This document shows positions 2,799-6,290 of a DNA stretch of 20,635 bases, piece by piece. The stretch comes from a virus, in the IMG/VR virus record IMGVR_UViG_3300042881_002392, positions 1-20,635 of that record; one strand, given 5' to 3'. Each line of letters begins with the position of its first letter. The stretch's first letter is position 1. A program made the position numbers and the translations under genes. Below the pieces are notes generated by a model. The model searched no databases. It saw only the letters and a list, made by a program, of their open reading frames with translations, and was not told the DNA's origin.

Positions 2799-2828
2799 AG
2801 TGTAGACGAAAGTTAATAACCGAGTCAA
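2799..2828 (-). promoter_or_regulatory. leftward sigma70-like promoter A
   Basis: On the minus strand TTGACT (2828-2823) and TACACT (2804-2799) are separated by exactly 18 bases. It drives the DUF932-like gene. The TGA stop codon of the preceding 72-residue gene (2825-2827) lies inside the -35 hexamer. Confidence 0.75.
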
Positions 2829-3043
2829 GCAGAGGGGCTTTTGTGGATGGTGCCGACGATGTCAACCCATTGCAGCGTGTCCCTACACCACATCTGCGGG
2901 GAGATGTCAAGCTTGAGCGTCTTAGCCACCTCTAGCGCAGCCTGTGGTGTACGCTTGTCAGCACACACTGGTGTACCCATTGCTGCGTCATGGATGGCCC
3001 AGCCTGCGTTGCCACCGGATAGGTAGAAGCGATGTGAGAGCAT
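2825..3043 (-). CDS. hypothetical protein, 72 aa
   Basis: This is a 72-residue protein starting MLSHRFYLSGGNAGWAIHDA and containing a Gly/Ala-rich first half and an ALEVAKTLKLDI helix in the middle. I do not recognise the family. The ATG sits seven bases behind a full copy of the repeated ribosome element CCTGAAAGGAAAC, one of the best start signals in the window. The TGA is shared with the -35 box of promoter A, so the gene end and the next promoter are fused. The four genes from 3743 to 2825 are read from promoter 3784-3813. Confidence 0.75.
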   Translation of the reverse strand: MLSHRFYLSGGNAGWAIHDAAMGTPVCADKRTPQAALEVAKTLKLDISPQMWCRDTLQWVDIVGTIHKSPSA

Positions 3044-3070
3044 GTTGTTTCCTTTCAGGAAAACGACGGG

Positions 3071-3250
3071 TTAGTAACGGGTGACAATGCGGAAGTCAGC
3101 ATTGATGGGATAGCAATCGATCCATTCGAATGCATCGTTGTGCTTGAACGTGTAGTGCTTGAACGTGTCGCCTTCCCAATAGATGGTGATGACATAACGT
3201 GCAAGCTTACGTTGCAGGGTGCGACGGACGGAGGAGATGATGTCGTTCAT
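3071..3250 (-). CDS. hypothetical protein, 59 aa
   Basis: The 59-residue product starts MNDIISSVRRTLQRKLARYV and continues ITIYWEGDTFKHYTFKH before ending FRIVTRY. An N-terminal basic amphipathic helix is followed by beta-type sequence with a TYW-like core, which resembles small host-takeover proteins of phages only in general character. The ATG is preceded by TAGGAAACAGA, a shortened form of the local ribosome element, and the gap to the upstream stop is 11 bases. Translation, spacing and strand fit the surrounding operon well; the function is unknown. Confidence 0.7.
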   Translation of the reverse strand: MNDIISSVRRTLQRKLARYVITIYWEGDTFKHYTFKHNDAFEWIDCYPINADFRIVTRY

Positions 3251-3261
3251 TCTGTTTCCTA

Positions 3262-3453
3262 TTAAACAAAGGTTGGAACAGCCTGCTCTTGCAGCATGTT
3301 AGCAACGGTGCCGCCATACAGATATGCCAGCGTCATCCATGTACTATCGTGGATGTCCATTGACTGACGATAGTTTCCATACACTTCACAGAACCAATCG
3401 TCGTCGCCATGAGCGAGAGCATAGTCTTGAGCGAGGATGAGAAACTTCTGCAT
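3262..3453 (-). CDS. hypothetical protein, 63 aa
   Basis: This is a 63-residue acidic protein beginning MQKFLILAQDYALAHGDDDW, followed by a Tyr-rich segment YGNYRQ and LAYLYGGTVANML. No family is recognised. The start is clear because a complete CCTGAAAGGAAACATC ribosome element stands directly before the ATG. It is 11 bases downstream of the SH3-like gene and 11 bases upstream of the 59-residue gene, so it belongs to the same transcript from promoter 3784-3813. Confidence 0.75.
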   Translation of the reverse strand: MQKFLILAQDYALAHGDDDWFCEVYGNYRQSMDIHDSTWMTLAYLYGGTVANMLQEQAVPTFV

Positions 3454-3464
3454 GATGTTTCCTT

Positions 3465-3743
3465 TCAGGAAGAGACGGCAACAGATGCTTCAGCACCATC
3501 AGCACGGATAGTGAGGATGCGATCCATAGGGATAGACCGATACGCCATTGCCTTGACGTCGAAGACAACGAACACACCTTCAGGGGTAGTACGTGGCGCA
3601 GCGTCAGCATTCTTCAGAAACTTACGCACACCTCCACGGCAGTTCATGCTACGGATGCTGCCGTCTGCCTTGATGAAGAGCACGGAGAAGAAACGTCCGC
3701 TATCCTTTGCAGACGAGAGCCAGTAGTTCATCATTGTGTTCAC
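3465..3743 (-). CDS. SH3 beta-barrel-like small phage protein
   Basis: The 92-residue product resembles a widespread group of small phage proteins that annotation pipelines label SH3 beta-barrel fold-containing. The shared pattern is a strand FFSVLFIKADGSIRSMNCR (about residues 18-36), then G-VRKFLKN, then VFVVFDVKAMAYRSIPMDRI (about 57-76) and a closing ILTIRADG. This comparison is from memory. Function is unknown; small barrels of this type often bind protein or RNA. I keep the GTG at 3743 as start because AAAGGA lies six bases before it, whereas the two ATGs at codons 4 and 5 are too far from that site. It is the first gene behind promoter 3784-3813. Confidence 0.75.
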   Translation of the reverse strand: MNTMMNYWLSSAKDSGRFFSVLFIKADGSIRSMNCRGGVRKFLKNADAAPRTTPEGVFVVFDVKAMAYRSIPMDRILTIRADGAEASVAVSS

Positions 3744-3783
3744 GTTGTGTCCTTTATGTGAGGAAGTGTTGATGACGCCGACA

Positions 3784-3813
3784 ATTGTAAGGACGTCGGC
3801 AATCCTGAGTCAA
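3784..3813 (-). promoter_or_regulatory. leftward sigma70-like promoter B
   Basis: On the minus strand TTGACT (3813-3808) and TACAAT (3789-3784) are separated by 18 bases. The spacer CAGGATTGCCGACGTCCT carries a partial dyad (AGGA/TCCT). An additional inverted repeat GCCGAC/GTCGGC surrounds the -10 region (about 3777-3800). Confidence 0.8.
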
Positions 3814-3821
3814 GCGAGGGG

Positions 3822-5055: not shown

Positions 5056-5085
5056 ATGTTGCAGACTTTCGGAAAACCCTGTCAA
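5056..5085 (-). promoter_or_regulatory. degenerate promoter E of the same series
   Basis: On the minus strand TTGACA (5085-5080) has the conserved upstream CCCTACAC context, but the hexamer 18 bases downstream is CAACAT (5061-5056), only 3/6 of consensus. It is probably a decayed copy; no gene follows before promoter D. Confidence 0.4.
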
Positions 5086-5104
5086 GTGTAGGGTCTTTCG
5101 AAAG

Positions 5105-5122
5105 CCTCCCCTTTAGGGGAAG
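5105..5122 (-). terminator. hairpin after the 251-aa gene
   Basis: On the minus strand CTTCCCC (5122-5116) pairs with GGGGAGG (5111-5105) around a TAAA loop, seven pairs with one G-U, starting ten bases after the stop codon. Only CTTTC follows in place of a T-run, so termination would be weak. Confidence 0.5.
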
Positions 5123-5131
5123 CTGTTGTCG

Positions 5132-5887
5132 TCATGCCGCTTTCAGCATGAACACCGGAGCGGGGGTGTCCACAACAAAGCCCGTCATGTCATGCTTTGC
5201 CTTACCCTTTGCATACAGGGCAACTACCACACCCTGTGGATCGATGTGACGAACGTCACTGTTGTCCCCACCTACAACACGCATCCCCATGAATGACGCA
5301 GGGATGGATGCCTCAGTACGGAACACAACCGCAATGCGCATACCATTTTCAATGGCTTTGTTGACGAACGGCTGAAAGCCGATAACACCACTGTACGAGA
5401 ATGTCAGATCGTAATTTGAAGGCTTTGCCTTCCTGTTCGCATCCTTCGTGTAGTCATAAAACTGTACCTCAGGGAAAGCATCGAAGATGCTAGCGTAAAC
5501 AGTGCCGTCAACATCAGTGAAACCTACGGTTTCCCAGCGGATATCACTGGTGCCGTTCAAGCGGATCAACAGCGTTTGTGCAGCATTCTTTGCTTTCACT
5601 TTCAGTGAACGAATGTTCTTTGCAAGCTGTTGCATGAAGCTGTTGCGATCCTCAAAAAACCATACGGTTTTGTTGACTCGACCCTGTGCCACCGTTGACA
5701 TGGCACCACGCCCAGCGGTATACAAGCATGCATCACCGCATTGTGCAATCGCCGCCATGCTACAGGTATTCCGCTTCGTGGACTTGAACGGGGCAAGGTA
5801 GAGGATGCCCGTCATAAAACCAAGGGTTTCACCCTTCACGGTTTTGGCATCACTTGCGACGGACAACAGATTCTTGGACTTGAACAT
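5132..5887 (-). CDS. cysteine-motif phage protein, 251 aa (DUF7227/GP88-like)
   Basis: The 251-residue product has KTVKGETLGFMTGILYLAPF (about 15-34), then CSMAAIAQCGDACLYTAGRG (about 42-61), giving C-x7-C-x3-C before TAGRG. Further on are FFEDRNSFMQQL, LIRLNGTSDIRWET and FPEVQFYDYTKDANRK. From memory this corresponds to a conserved family in many phages (annotated DUF7227 or compared with mycobacteriophage GP88), in which the cysteines and the RLNGTSDI/FYDYTK segments are conserved. Clustered cysteines plus barrel-like strands hint at an iron-sulphur or radical-SAM-like enzyme, but this is inference. The ATG follows a full RBS element and promoter F, so it is a monocistronic cassette ended by the 5105-5122 hairpin. 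Confidence 0.75.
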   Translation of the reverse strand: MFKSKNLLSVASDAKTVKGETLGFMTGILYLAPFKSTKRNTCSMAAIAQCGDACLYTAGRGAMSTVAQGRVNKTVWFFEDRNSFMQQLAKNIRSLKVKAKNAAQTLLIRLNGTSDIRWETVGFTDVDGTVYASIFDAFPEVQFYDYTKDANRKAKPSNYDLTFSYSGVIGFQPFVNKAIENGMRIAVVFRTEASIPASFMGMRVVGGDNSDVRHIDPQGVVVALYAKGKAKHDMTGFVVDTPAPVFMLKAA

Positions 5888-5934
5888 GATGTTTCCTTTC
5901 AGGAAGTGACGACACTGTGCCGTCGATGGATTGC

Positions 5935-5964
5935 AGTGTAGGGGCTTTCGAAAACCCCTGTCAA
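5935..5964 (-). promoter_or_regulatory. leftward sigma70-like promoter F
   Basis: On the minus strand TTGACA (5964-5959) and TACACT (5940-5935) are separated by 18 bases. The spacer GGGGTTTTCGAAAGCCCC is an almost perfect palindrome, the clearest operator-like dyad in the series. It drives the 251-residue gene. Confidence 0.85.
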
Positions 5965-5979
5965 CTGTGGGGGCTTTCG

Positions 5980-6210
5980 TCAGATGATGTTCGGAATCTT
6001 CGATTCCTCACGCTCACGCTCCTCATTCGTCATGCCCAACAACGACTCCGTCGATGCGAACATTTGGATGATGCTGTTGTCAAAGGAAACGTAGTTTCCG
6101 AATCCGTCGTCAGCGAAAAAGCCGACGACTTTGGAGGGAATGATGATGCCGAACAAACCCTTATGGGTTTCAACGCTGGGATGAACGTTATGCAAGTGAC
6201 GTGAGAACAT
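5980..6210 (-). CDS. hypothetical protein, 76 aa
   Basis: The 76-residue protein begins MFSRHLHNVHPSVETHKGLF and contains a beta-type segment GIIIPSKVVGFFADDGFGNY before a helical, Glu/Arg-rich end (MTNEEREREESK). It is not recognised. The ATG follows a full CCTGAAAGGAAACACATC element, and the gene stands alone behind promoter G. It is the first gene leftward of the central non-coding region, so it is likely transcribed early if leftward genes are early. Confidence 0.75.
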   Translation of the reverse strand: MFSRHLHNVHPSVETHKGLFGIIIPSKVVGFFADDGFGNYVSFDNSIIQMFASTESLLGMTNEEREREESKIPNII

Positions 6211-6260
6211 GATGTGTTTCCTTTCAGGAATCGGCGGGATGCCGTGTTTCGATGGGTTGC

Positions 6261-6290
6261 ATTGTGTCGACTTTTCAAAGCCCGAGTCAA
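6261..6290 (-). promoter_or_regulatory. leftward sigma70-like promoter G
   Basis: On the minus strand TTGACT (6290-6285) and CACAAT (6266-6261) are separated by 18 bases (CGGGCTTTGAAAAGTCGA). The upstream context GCCCCTACAG and the downstream GCAACCCATCG match the other cassettes. Confidence 0.75.

Follow-up and report, generated by a model that had tools for sequence, protein, structure and literature searches.

A repeated promoter module with a candidate operator and RNA hairpins in the minus-strand arm of a group of related phages

Introduction

In the dispersed-operator immunity systems of phage P1 (C1 operators) and mycobacteriophage L5 (stoperators), one repressor acts at many sites, and these sites are asymmetric. 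In cluster K mycobacteriophages, start-associated sequences (SAS) lie before start codons, and extended SAS (ESAS) are found at a subset of these. Adephagia has seven ESAS with SigA-like promoters, a spacing of 17-18, and an inverted repeat (PMC3203893, PMC11373665, PMC12699233), and repression by a regulator at the ESAS has been called plausible (PMC11373665). Here we describe a repeated promoter module in a fragment of a virus record in IMG/VR (IMGVR_UViG_3300042881_002392, positions 1-20,635; this stretch of 20,635 bases is "the window"). Seven copies of the module lie in the minus-strand arm of the window (approximately positions 1-6300). Comparing these copies with those in related phages, we believe that the module is probably (at roughly 0.65) a repeated control unit for early genes, which consists of a promoter, an operator dyad, a leader hairpin, and, often, a hairpin at the ribosome-binding site (RBS). 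Two of the modules lead to candidate structured RNAs, which we call RNA A and RNA B. Judging by their titles, none of the publications that our searches returned is about this module or about a boxA-containing RNA of such phages.

Results

Seven copies of a promoter module in the window

A first-pass annotation of the window, made from the sequence alone, had listed seven promoter elements on the minus strand. We rechecked these on the sequence, and every coordinate, every hexamer, and the 18-base spacer were as listed (Table 1; modules are named by the highest coordinate of the -35 box). The extended motif CCC-N5-TTGACW-N18-NANNNT occurs seven times in the window, versus a mean of 0.003 times in 300 dinucleotide shuffles. 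This motif was defined after the sites were seen; what supports it independently is that it recurs in relatives. A generic sigma70 scan of positions 1-12000 found 15 promoters, compared to 14.0 expected, so there is no excess; the 15 include six of the seven modules. The promoter stretches, each 43 bases long, overlap called coding sequences by just 0, 0, 0, 0, 5, 5, and 17 nucleotides, while 72% of the region 2781-6320 is coding.

The modules differ in what follows them. GCAAYCCATCG is common to modules 6290, 5964, and 4290, as annotated. These are also the only three that lead to TCCTGAAAGGAAAC and a start codon, which had been claimed for most of the seven. Module 2828 is followed by a truncated RBS element (TTCTGAAAGAAA), and module 3813 by a plain AAAGGA and a GTG start. 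Modules 5085 and 4897 lead to conserved non-coding sequence, with no gene directly behind them. Module 5085 also has a poor -10 box (CAACAT), which is below the threshold that we used to search the relatives. Its counterparts have better ones: TATAAT in relatives L082, L087, and L120 and AATAAT in L096 and L126.

The module in related phages

We collected relatives from the best 80 terminase relatives among the matches listed and from two pattern scans of viral contigs; scanning for the RBS element with a start codon gave 63 stretches. The anchor CCC-N5-TTGACW, with no -10 box required, has 99 hits in 46 loci, with near-duplicates not collapsed (for example, L111 repeats L096, and L135 repeats L089). 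A good -10 box is present at 85 of the 99 hits, with a best spacing of 18 in 57 cases, 17 in 27 cases, and 23 in one case; the last is window module 5085, which has only a poor hexamer at 18. At the remaining 14 hits, no good -10 box is present. Loci listed as repeats of others had been excluded beforehand; collapsing near-duplicates at 85-88% identity then gave 56 non-redundant copies, not including window module 5085, and one of these copies (in L095) is probably due to chance. The 35 promoters and 27 leaders described below were filtered in both ways, the 41 dyad copies by collapsing, and the RBS hairpin counts by the exclusion of repeated loci. The spacer is 18 in 39 of them and 17 in the other 17. 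The fixed spacer of the first-pass annotation is thus a property of the window, where it is always 18, but not of the relatives.

The module is also restricted in position. Within the window, the extended motif is found in the arm and nowhere else. When we searched 16 records with CCCNNNNNTTGACWNRGNNNT, 15 had sites, and the sites in each record lay on one strand and in one stretch; the reversed control pattern had no sites in any of the 16 (the set includes the near-copies G003/G006 and G007/G010). For instance, G001 (57,374 bases) has seven sites at 38.4-44.0 kb, and its leftward genes beyond the sites encode ribonucleotide reductase, MazG, a 5'-3' exonuclease, PhoH, and an integrase. Record MW202701 has one module-like site (L145) and none with the stricter pattern, and it lacks an exact RBS element. 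Limnohabitans phage DC31 encodes a GP88-like protein, but no module, RNA A, or RNA B was found in the 45,000 of its 76,209 bases that were searched. Among 50,697 records of named phages, none has a DNA match to positions 4600-5110 at an E value of 0.01. The hosts are probably freshwater bacteria. One of the 14 hits without a good -10 box is a degenerate module in L002 (approximately 2950-2990, minus strand), in which the RBS hairpin comes almost directly after the -35 box, as though a deletion had removed the -10 box and leader.

A dyad around the -35 box

The -35 box lies within a 27-bp dyad, AA-N3-CCC ... GG-N3-TT, whose half-sites are about two helical turns apart. The center of symmetry is the first T of TTGAC, and CCC is at -8 to -6. 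Across 41 copies, the AA at -13/-12 is present in 38 and 40, the GG at +7/+8 in 36 and 38, and the TT at +12/+13 in 37 and 33. Both this set and the set of 56 copies were selected on CCC, so we also considered 35 unselected promoters, which were taken by their position upstream of an RBS hairpin. Among these, the dyad bases were present in 32 (C-8), 32 (C-7), 30 (C-6), 29 (A-13), 31 (A-12), 32 (G+7), 34 (G+8), 32 (T+12), and 31 (T+13). In a small control of 8 TTGACW sites without a -10 box, the counts at the same positions were 1, 0, 2, 2, 5, 2, 1, 2, and 2.

The variable positions of the arms do not covary. Across the 56 copies, -9/+9 could pair in 11 (16.0 when shuffled), -10/+10 in 23 (23.7 when shuffled), and -11/+11 in 26 (25.4 when shuffled). 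Because the arms are fixed and their variable positions do not covary, the dyad is best read as a binding site for a protein, that is, a putative operator, rather than as an RNA hairpin. Like the operator of a phage repressor, it is symmetric and overlaps a promoter. Given the integrase in G001, a lysogeny repressor is plausible.

The spacer might hold a second dyad (GGG...CCC, preceding the -10 box), but its covariation was only partial in the 39 copies with a spacer of 18, and we do not claim it. Separately, L087 has a 50-codon open reading frame (ORF) after RNA B (10014-10166, minus strand) that looks like a small helix-turn-helix protein; it has no match in Pfam.

Hairpins in the leader and at the ribosome-binding site

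The predicted transcripts begin with a hairpin: the mean z score of 27 leaders, relative to letter shuffles, is -2.92. In many copies, a second hairpin encloses the Shine-Dalgarno sequence, and its 5' half follows the Shine-Dalgarno half through compensatory changes. Across 59 loci, GGAAA occurs with TTCC 228 times and with TACC twice, while GGTAA occurs with TTCC twice and with TACC 19 times (P = 2.7e-24 by Fisher's test, which is too small a value because related rows were taken as independent). The alternative stem (TACC/GGTAA) was found in 12 loci. The window contains six copies of the RBS hairpin TTCCTGAAAGGAAAC, and three of them (at 4620, 3457, and 3047) have no module directly in front.

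Two candidate structured RNAs

RNA A follows module 5085. In an alignment of 6 sequences, 10 of its 34 pairs show compensatory changes and 95.6% of cells are paired. Covariation is 0.267, as compared to 0.141 for shuffled alignments; four of five measures were above all shuffles, and the exception was further pair types. The model of RNA A matches 11 of 81 sources, and its core has no exact matches in bacterial genome contigs.

RNA B follows module 4897. In 12 sequences, 8 of 17 pairs have compensatory changes and covariation is 0.463 (0.286 when shuffled), with no excess of further pair types. The resulting model (R1) has 53 matches in the 81 sources at E values of up to 1. In 47 loci (46 distinct), 94.6% of cells are paired, with a covariation of 0.511 versus 0.260 when shuffled; the weakest of these loci has an E value of 0.02, and they were aligned to the model and so are biased towards it. 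All 47 are on the same strand as the RBS hairpins. A GP88-like gene ends within 1 kb upstream of RNA B in 35 of the 47, while 10 have no such hit and the order is reversed in 2. In L036-type phages, the module precedes the GP88 gene in each of 19 loci (judged by eye), and RNA B mostly comes after the GP88 gene with no separate module in front of it (12 loci). The exceptions are L099, which has another promoter before RNA B, and L004 and L136, in which GP88 does not precede RNA B.

Among 17 whole records, 11 contain RNA B at an E value of 0.001. At this threshold, it was not found in MW202701 or in the records of L002, L005, L010, L071, and L127. Those of L005, L010, and L071 also lack the RBS element, and the L127 record has a match at an E value of just 0.016. 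Neither RNA A nor RNA B has an Rfam match at the gathering threshold: at E values of up to 5, the only match was mir-455, at 17.5 bits (gathering threshold, 70), which is at the level of chance.

RNA B contains the window's sole match to the boxA consensus, GYTCTTTAANA (0.07 expected). This consensus is gamma-proteobacterial (PMC5725501). Columns 4, 5, 7-10, 12, and 13 of boxA (T, C, TTAA, and AA) are identical in all 47 loci and column 6 (T) in 46, while column 3 is an A, which is outside the consensus, in 13. As in the rrn (ribosomal RNA) antitermination leader and the lambda nut site, a hairpin soon follows boxA, and several relatives also have a short hairpin just before it (judged by eye). 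RNA B differs from these leaders in being a long structured RNA of its own and in being absent from L002; no N-like protein was found, although no search was aimed at one. On these features, it looks like an rRNA-type (boxA) antitermination leader that would head a leftward operon.

Gene exchange in the arm

The first-pass annotation also proposed that the arm is built from interchangeable single-gene cassettes, each with its own module. We compared the window to a close relative (L002/L084), whose terminase is 98% identical. Homology within the arm breaks at 2771, 3253/3259, 4614, 5052-5063, 5972, and 6208, and all six breaks fall within a module or the leader behind it, or between an RBS and its start codon. 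The same module can precede different genes: in L084, a 68-codon gene behind the same promoter takes the place of the stretch that contains RNA A and RNA B, two other genes replace gene 5980-6210, and another gene replaces the DUF932 gene after module 2828. A homologous counterpart of module 6290 is also present in L002/L084. To this extent the cassette idea stands. However, not every gene has a promoter of its own, as no promoter lies directly before those starting at 4612, 4520, 3453, 3250, and 3043, and two of the seven modules lead to structured RNAs instead of genes. In the window, L087, and L096 alike, a GP88-family gene stands just before RNA A, and it has diverged rather than being freely exchanged. 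As selection alone would also place breaks at gene boundaries, and as there is just one genome pair, we infer recombination at the repeats only from the positions of the breaks; cassette exchange by this route is partly supported.

Other features of the window

On the plus-strand side, the window has genes for the terminase, portal, and major head protein. The small genes of the arm include the GP88-family and L5 gp82-like genes and those for the DUF932 protein and an ADP-ribosylglycohydrolase. The last is phage-borne (5-829, minus strand; PF03747, E = 1.5e-42), with similar starts in L096 and G001 (judged by eye). The end of gene 2825-3043 lies within module 2828.

Positions 7120-7251 (plus strand) match the Betaproteobacteria-1 RNA of Rfam (RF02932; 68.7 bits, with a gathering threshold of 49.4). 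This match alone hints at a betaproteobacterial host. We found no paper with both "Betaproteobacteria-1" and "RNA motif." A promoter-like site (TTGACA...AAAACT) starts nearby at 7086. Just upstream of the match, in the divergent region that separates the arms, a unit of about 20 bases (GCAACATCATTTTTGCGCAA) occurs three times in tandem at 7019-7080 (plus strand). The same region has two copies of the palindrome CAGAGACTACGTCTCTG at 6405-6470, before the first module.

Table 1. Modules, RBS elements, and candidate RNAs in the arm of the window
Feature	Positions	Strand	Details
Module 6290	6261-6303	-	dyad arms 6296-6303 and 6277-6284; -35 at 6285-6290; -10 at 6261-6266; gene 5980-6210
RBS hairpin TTCCTGAAAGGAAAC	6216-6230	-	downstream of module 6290
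Module 5964	5935-5977	-	dyad arms 5970-5977 and 5951-5958; -35 at 5959-5964; -10 at 5935-5940; precedes GP88-family gene 5132-5887
RBS hairpin	5891-5905	-	downstream of module 5964
Module 5085	5056-5098	-	-35 at 5080-5085; weak -10 at 5056-5061; leads to RNA A
RNA A	4912-5056	-	candidate structured non-coding RNA; model match 4921-5056; ends approximate
Module 4897	4868-4910	-	dyad arm 4903-4910; -35 at 4892-4897; -10 at 4868-4873; leads to RNA B
RNA B	4640-4867	-	candidate structured RNA or leader; boxA, hairpin P1 (about 4814-4779), more hairpins, T-run (about 4674-4681); ends approximate
boxA CGCTCTTTAACAA	4822-4834	-	in RNA B
RBS hairpin	4620-4635	-	before 27-codon ORF 4529-4612; no module directly in front
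Module 4290	4261-4303	-	-35 at 4285-4290; -10 at 4261-4266; precedes L5 gp82-like gene 3822-4211
RBS hairpin	4215-4229	-	downstream of module 4290
Module 3813	3784-3826	-	-35 at 3808-3813; -10 at 3784-3789; gene 3465-3743 (GTG start)
RBS hairpin	3457-3471	-	no module directly in front
RBS hairpin	3047-3062	-	no module directly in front
Module 2828	2799-2841	-	-35 at 2823-2828; -10 at 2799-2804; precedes DUF932 gene 1853-2731
Shortened RBS palindrome TTCTGAAAGAAA	2734-2745	-	before DUF932 gene

Discussion

As judged from sequence, the module is a coordinated promoter unit that has been conserved and probably belongs to early genes. From the promoter-like motif, the dyad, the hairpins, the conserved RNAs, and the bias in position and strand, we infer how the unit would work. 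Host RNA polymerase with sigma70 would start at the near-consensus promoter. A dimeric regulator encoded by the phage, most likely acting as a repressor, would bind the 27-bp dyad and switch all of the copies together. The transcript would start with a short 5' hairpin, and at many copies a small hairpin that holds the Shine-Dalgarno sequence could give an equal setting for translation or add another step at which the copies are controlled. The unit would serve unrelated early genes as well as the two structured RNAs, with RNA B acting as a leader of the boxA antitermination type in front of the leftward operon.

We considered whether the dyad might instead be the terminator of the upstream gene, overlapping the next promoter, so that the units would be monocistronic and the conservation would be that of an RNA hairpin. 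Several copies of the module do begin a few bases from the upstream stop codon, and at modules 5964 and 5085, GAAAG(C/A)CCC can pair with GGG(G)TTTTC, next to a short T-run (judged by eye). A terminator scan listed no module site, but it allowed loops of 3-8 only, versus at least 11 here, so it gives no evidence either way. However, the variable arm positions of the 56 copies do not covary, and module 6290 has a clean dyad with no recognized gene upstream on its strand, so a terminator seems unlikely. It is quite unlikely that these are ordinary host-type promoters and RBSs that resemble each other through host preference and common descent, without a dedicated regulator. Such an origin would fit the hexamers, which are near the sigma70 consensus, and the lack of excess in the generic scan. 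It would not explain why AA, CCC, GG, and TT are conserved outside of the hexamers, why the sites of each record are confined to one stretch and one strand, or why the arms are not conserved in the small control of TTGACW sites without a -10 box.

Repeats might also persist mainly as recombination seams for single-gene cassettes, with regulation being secondary. The positions of the six breaks fit this idea, but they come from a single close pair, and functional constraint alone would put breaks between genes. Also, the dyad and the hairpins each show conservation and compensation of their own kind, for which homology seams would have no need. We therefore find it very unlikely that the repeats are primarily seams.

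Other observations weigh against a shared control unit. No helix-turn-helix family was found among 10 proteins of the window and 20 of relatives (including 18 of the 76 called ORFs of G001). Part of the dyad could be a UP-like element plus a spacer preference. The -10 boxes of the window are imperfect, and that of module 5085 is poor; the right arms of the dyad are weak at modules 2828, 3813, and 4290, and the left arm is partly weak at 4290. Of the 27 leaders, one folds into nothing and another has a z score of just -0.28. Sequences of the form GG(A/T)AA before ATG lack the 5' half of the RBS hairpin in 178 of 412 and 82 of 109 cases, although these are a mix of chance matches and plain RBSs. 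Finally, L002 is near-identical to the window elsewhere and has neither RNA A nor RNA B, a clear sign that the arm can do without these RNAs.

The most original part of the finding is RNA B. We tentatively suggest that a podovirus-like clade has its early arm, proteins and RNAs alike, under one promoter-operator-hairpin unit, and that RNA B represents a new RNA family that mimics the rRNA antitermination leader, which would allow transcription with the Nus complex and without a lambda N-like protein; we view this broader proposal as possible but doubtful. With 47 aligned loci and no match in our Rfam search, RNA B makes it possible to test concretely if phages borrow antitermination of the rRNA type. 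Similarly, the many copies make the operator and the RBS hairpin testable by comparison.

Among known systems, the dispersed operators of P1 and L5 would be similar in that one repressor works at many sites. Here, in contrast, the sites are dyads, they lie at promoters and in one arm, and no repressor was found in the proteins considered above. The closest known kind appears to be the SAS/ESAS of cluster K, which the module would resemble in how it works without being a member. Both have several intergenic promoters of the SigA or sigma70 type (7 in the window and 56 non-redundant copies), with a spacing of 17-18 and an inverted repeat, and both have a conserved RBS element that precedes the starts of more genes than the promoter does (in the window, half of the six exact copies have no module directly in front). 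But the hosts differ and the sequences are unrelated: the 13-bp SAS, GGGATAGGAGCCC, has no match in the window within 2 mismatches. The ESAS inverted repeat is imperfect and 15-17 bp long, while the module's dyad has two short arms around the -35 box and differs in both size and sequence. A leader hairpin and two structured RNAs also belong to the set here, unlike in cluster K. The architecture of the still unexplained SAS/ESAS thus recurs in phages that are apparently unrelated to mycobacteriophages, which suggests a convergent design: a promoter, an operator, and a hairpin at the start codon, placed before accessory genes.

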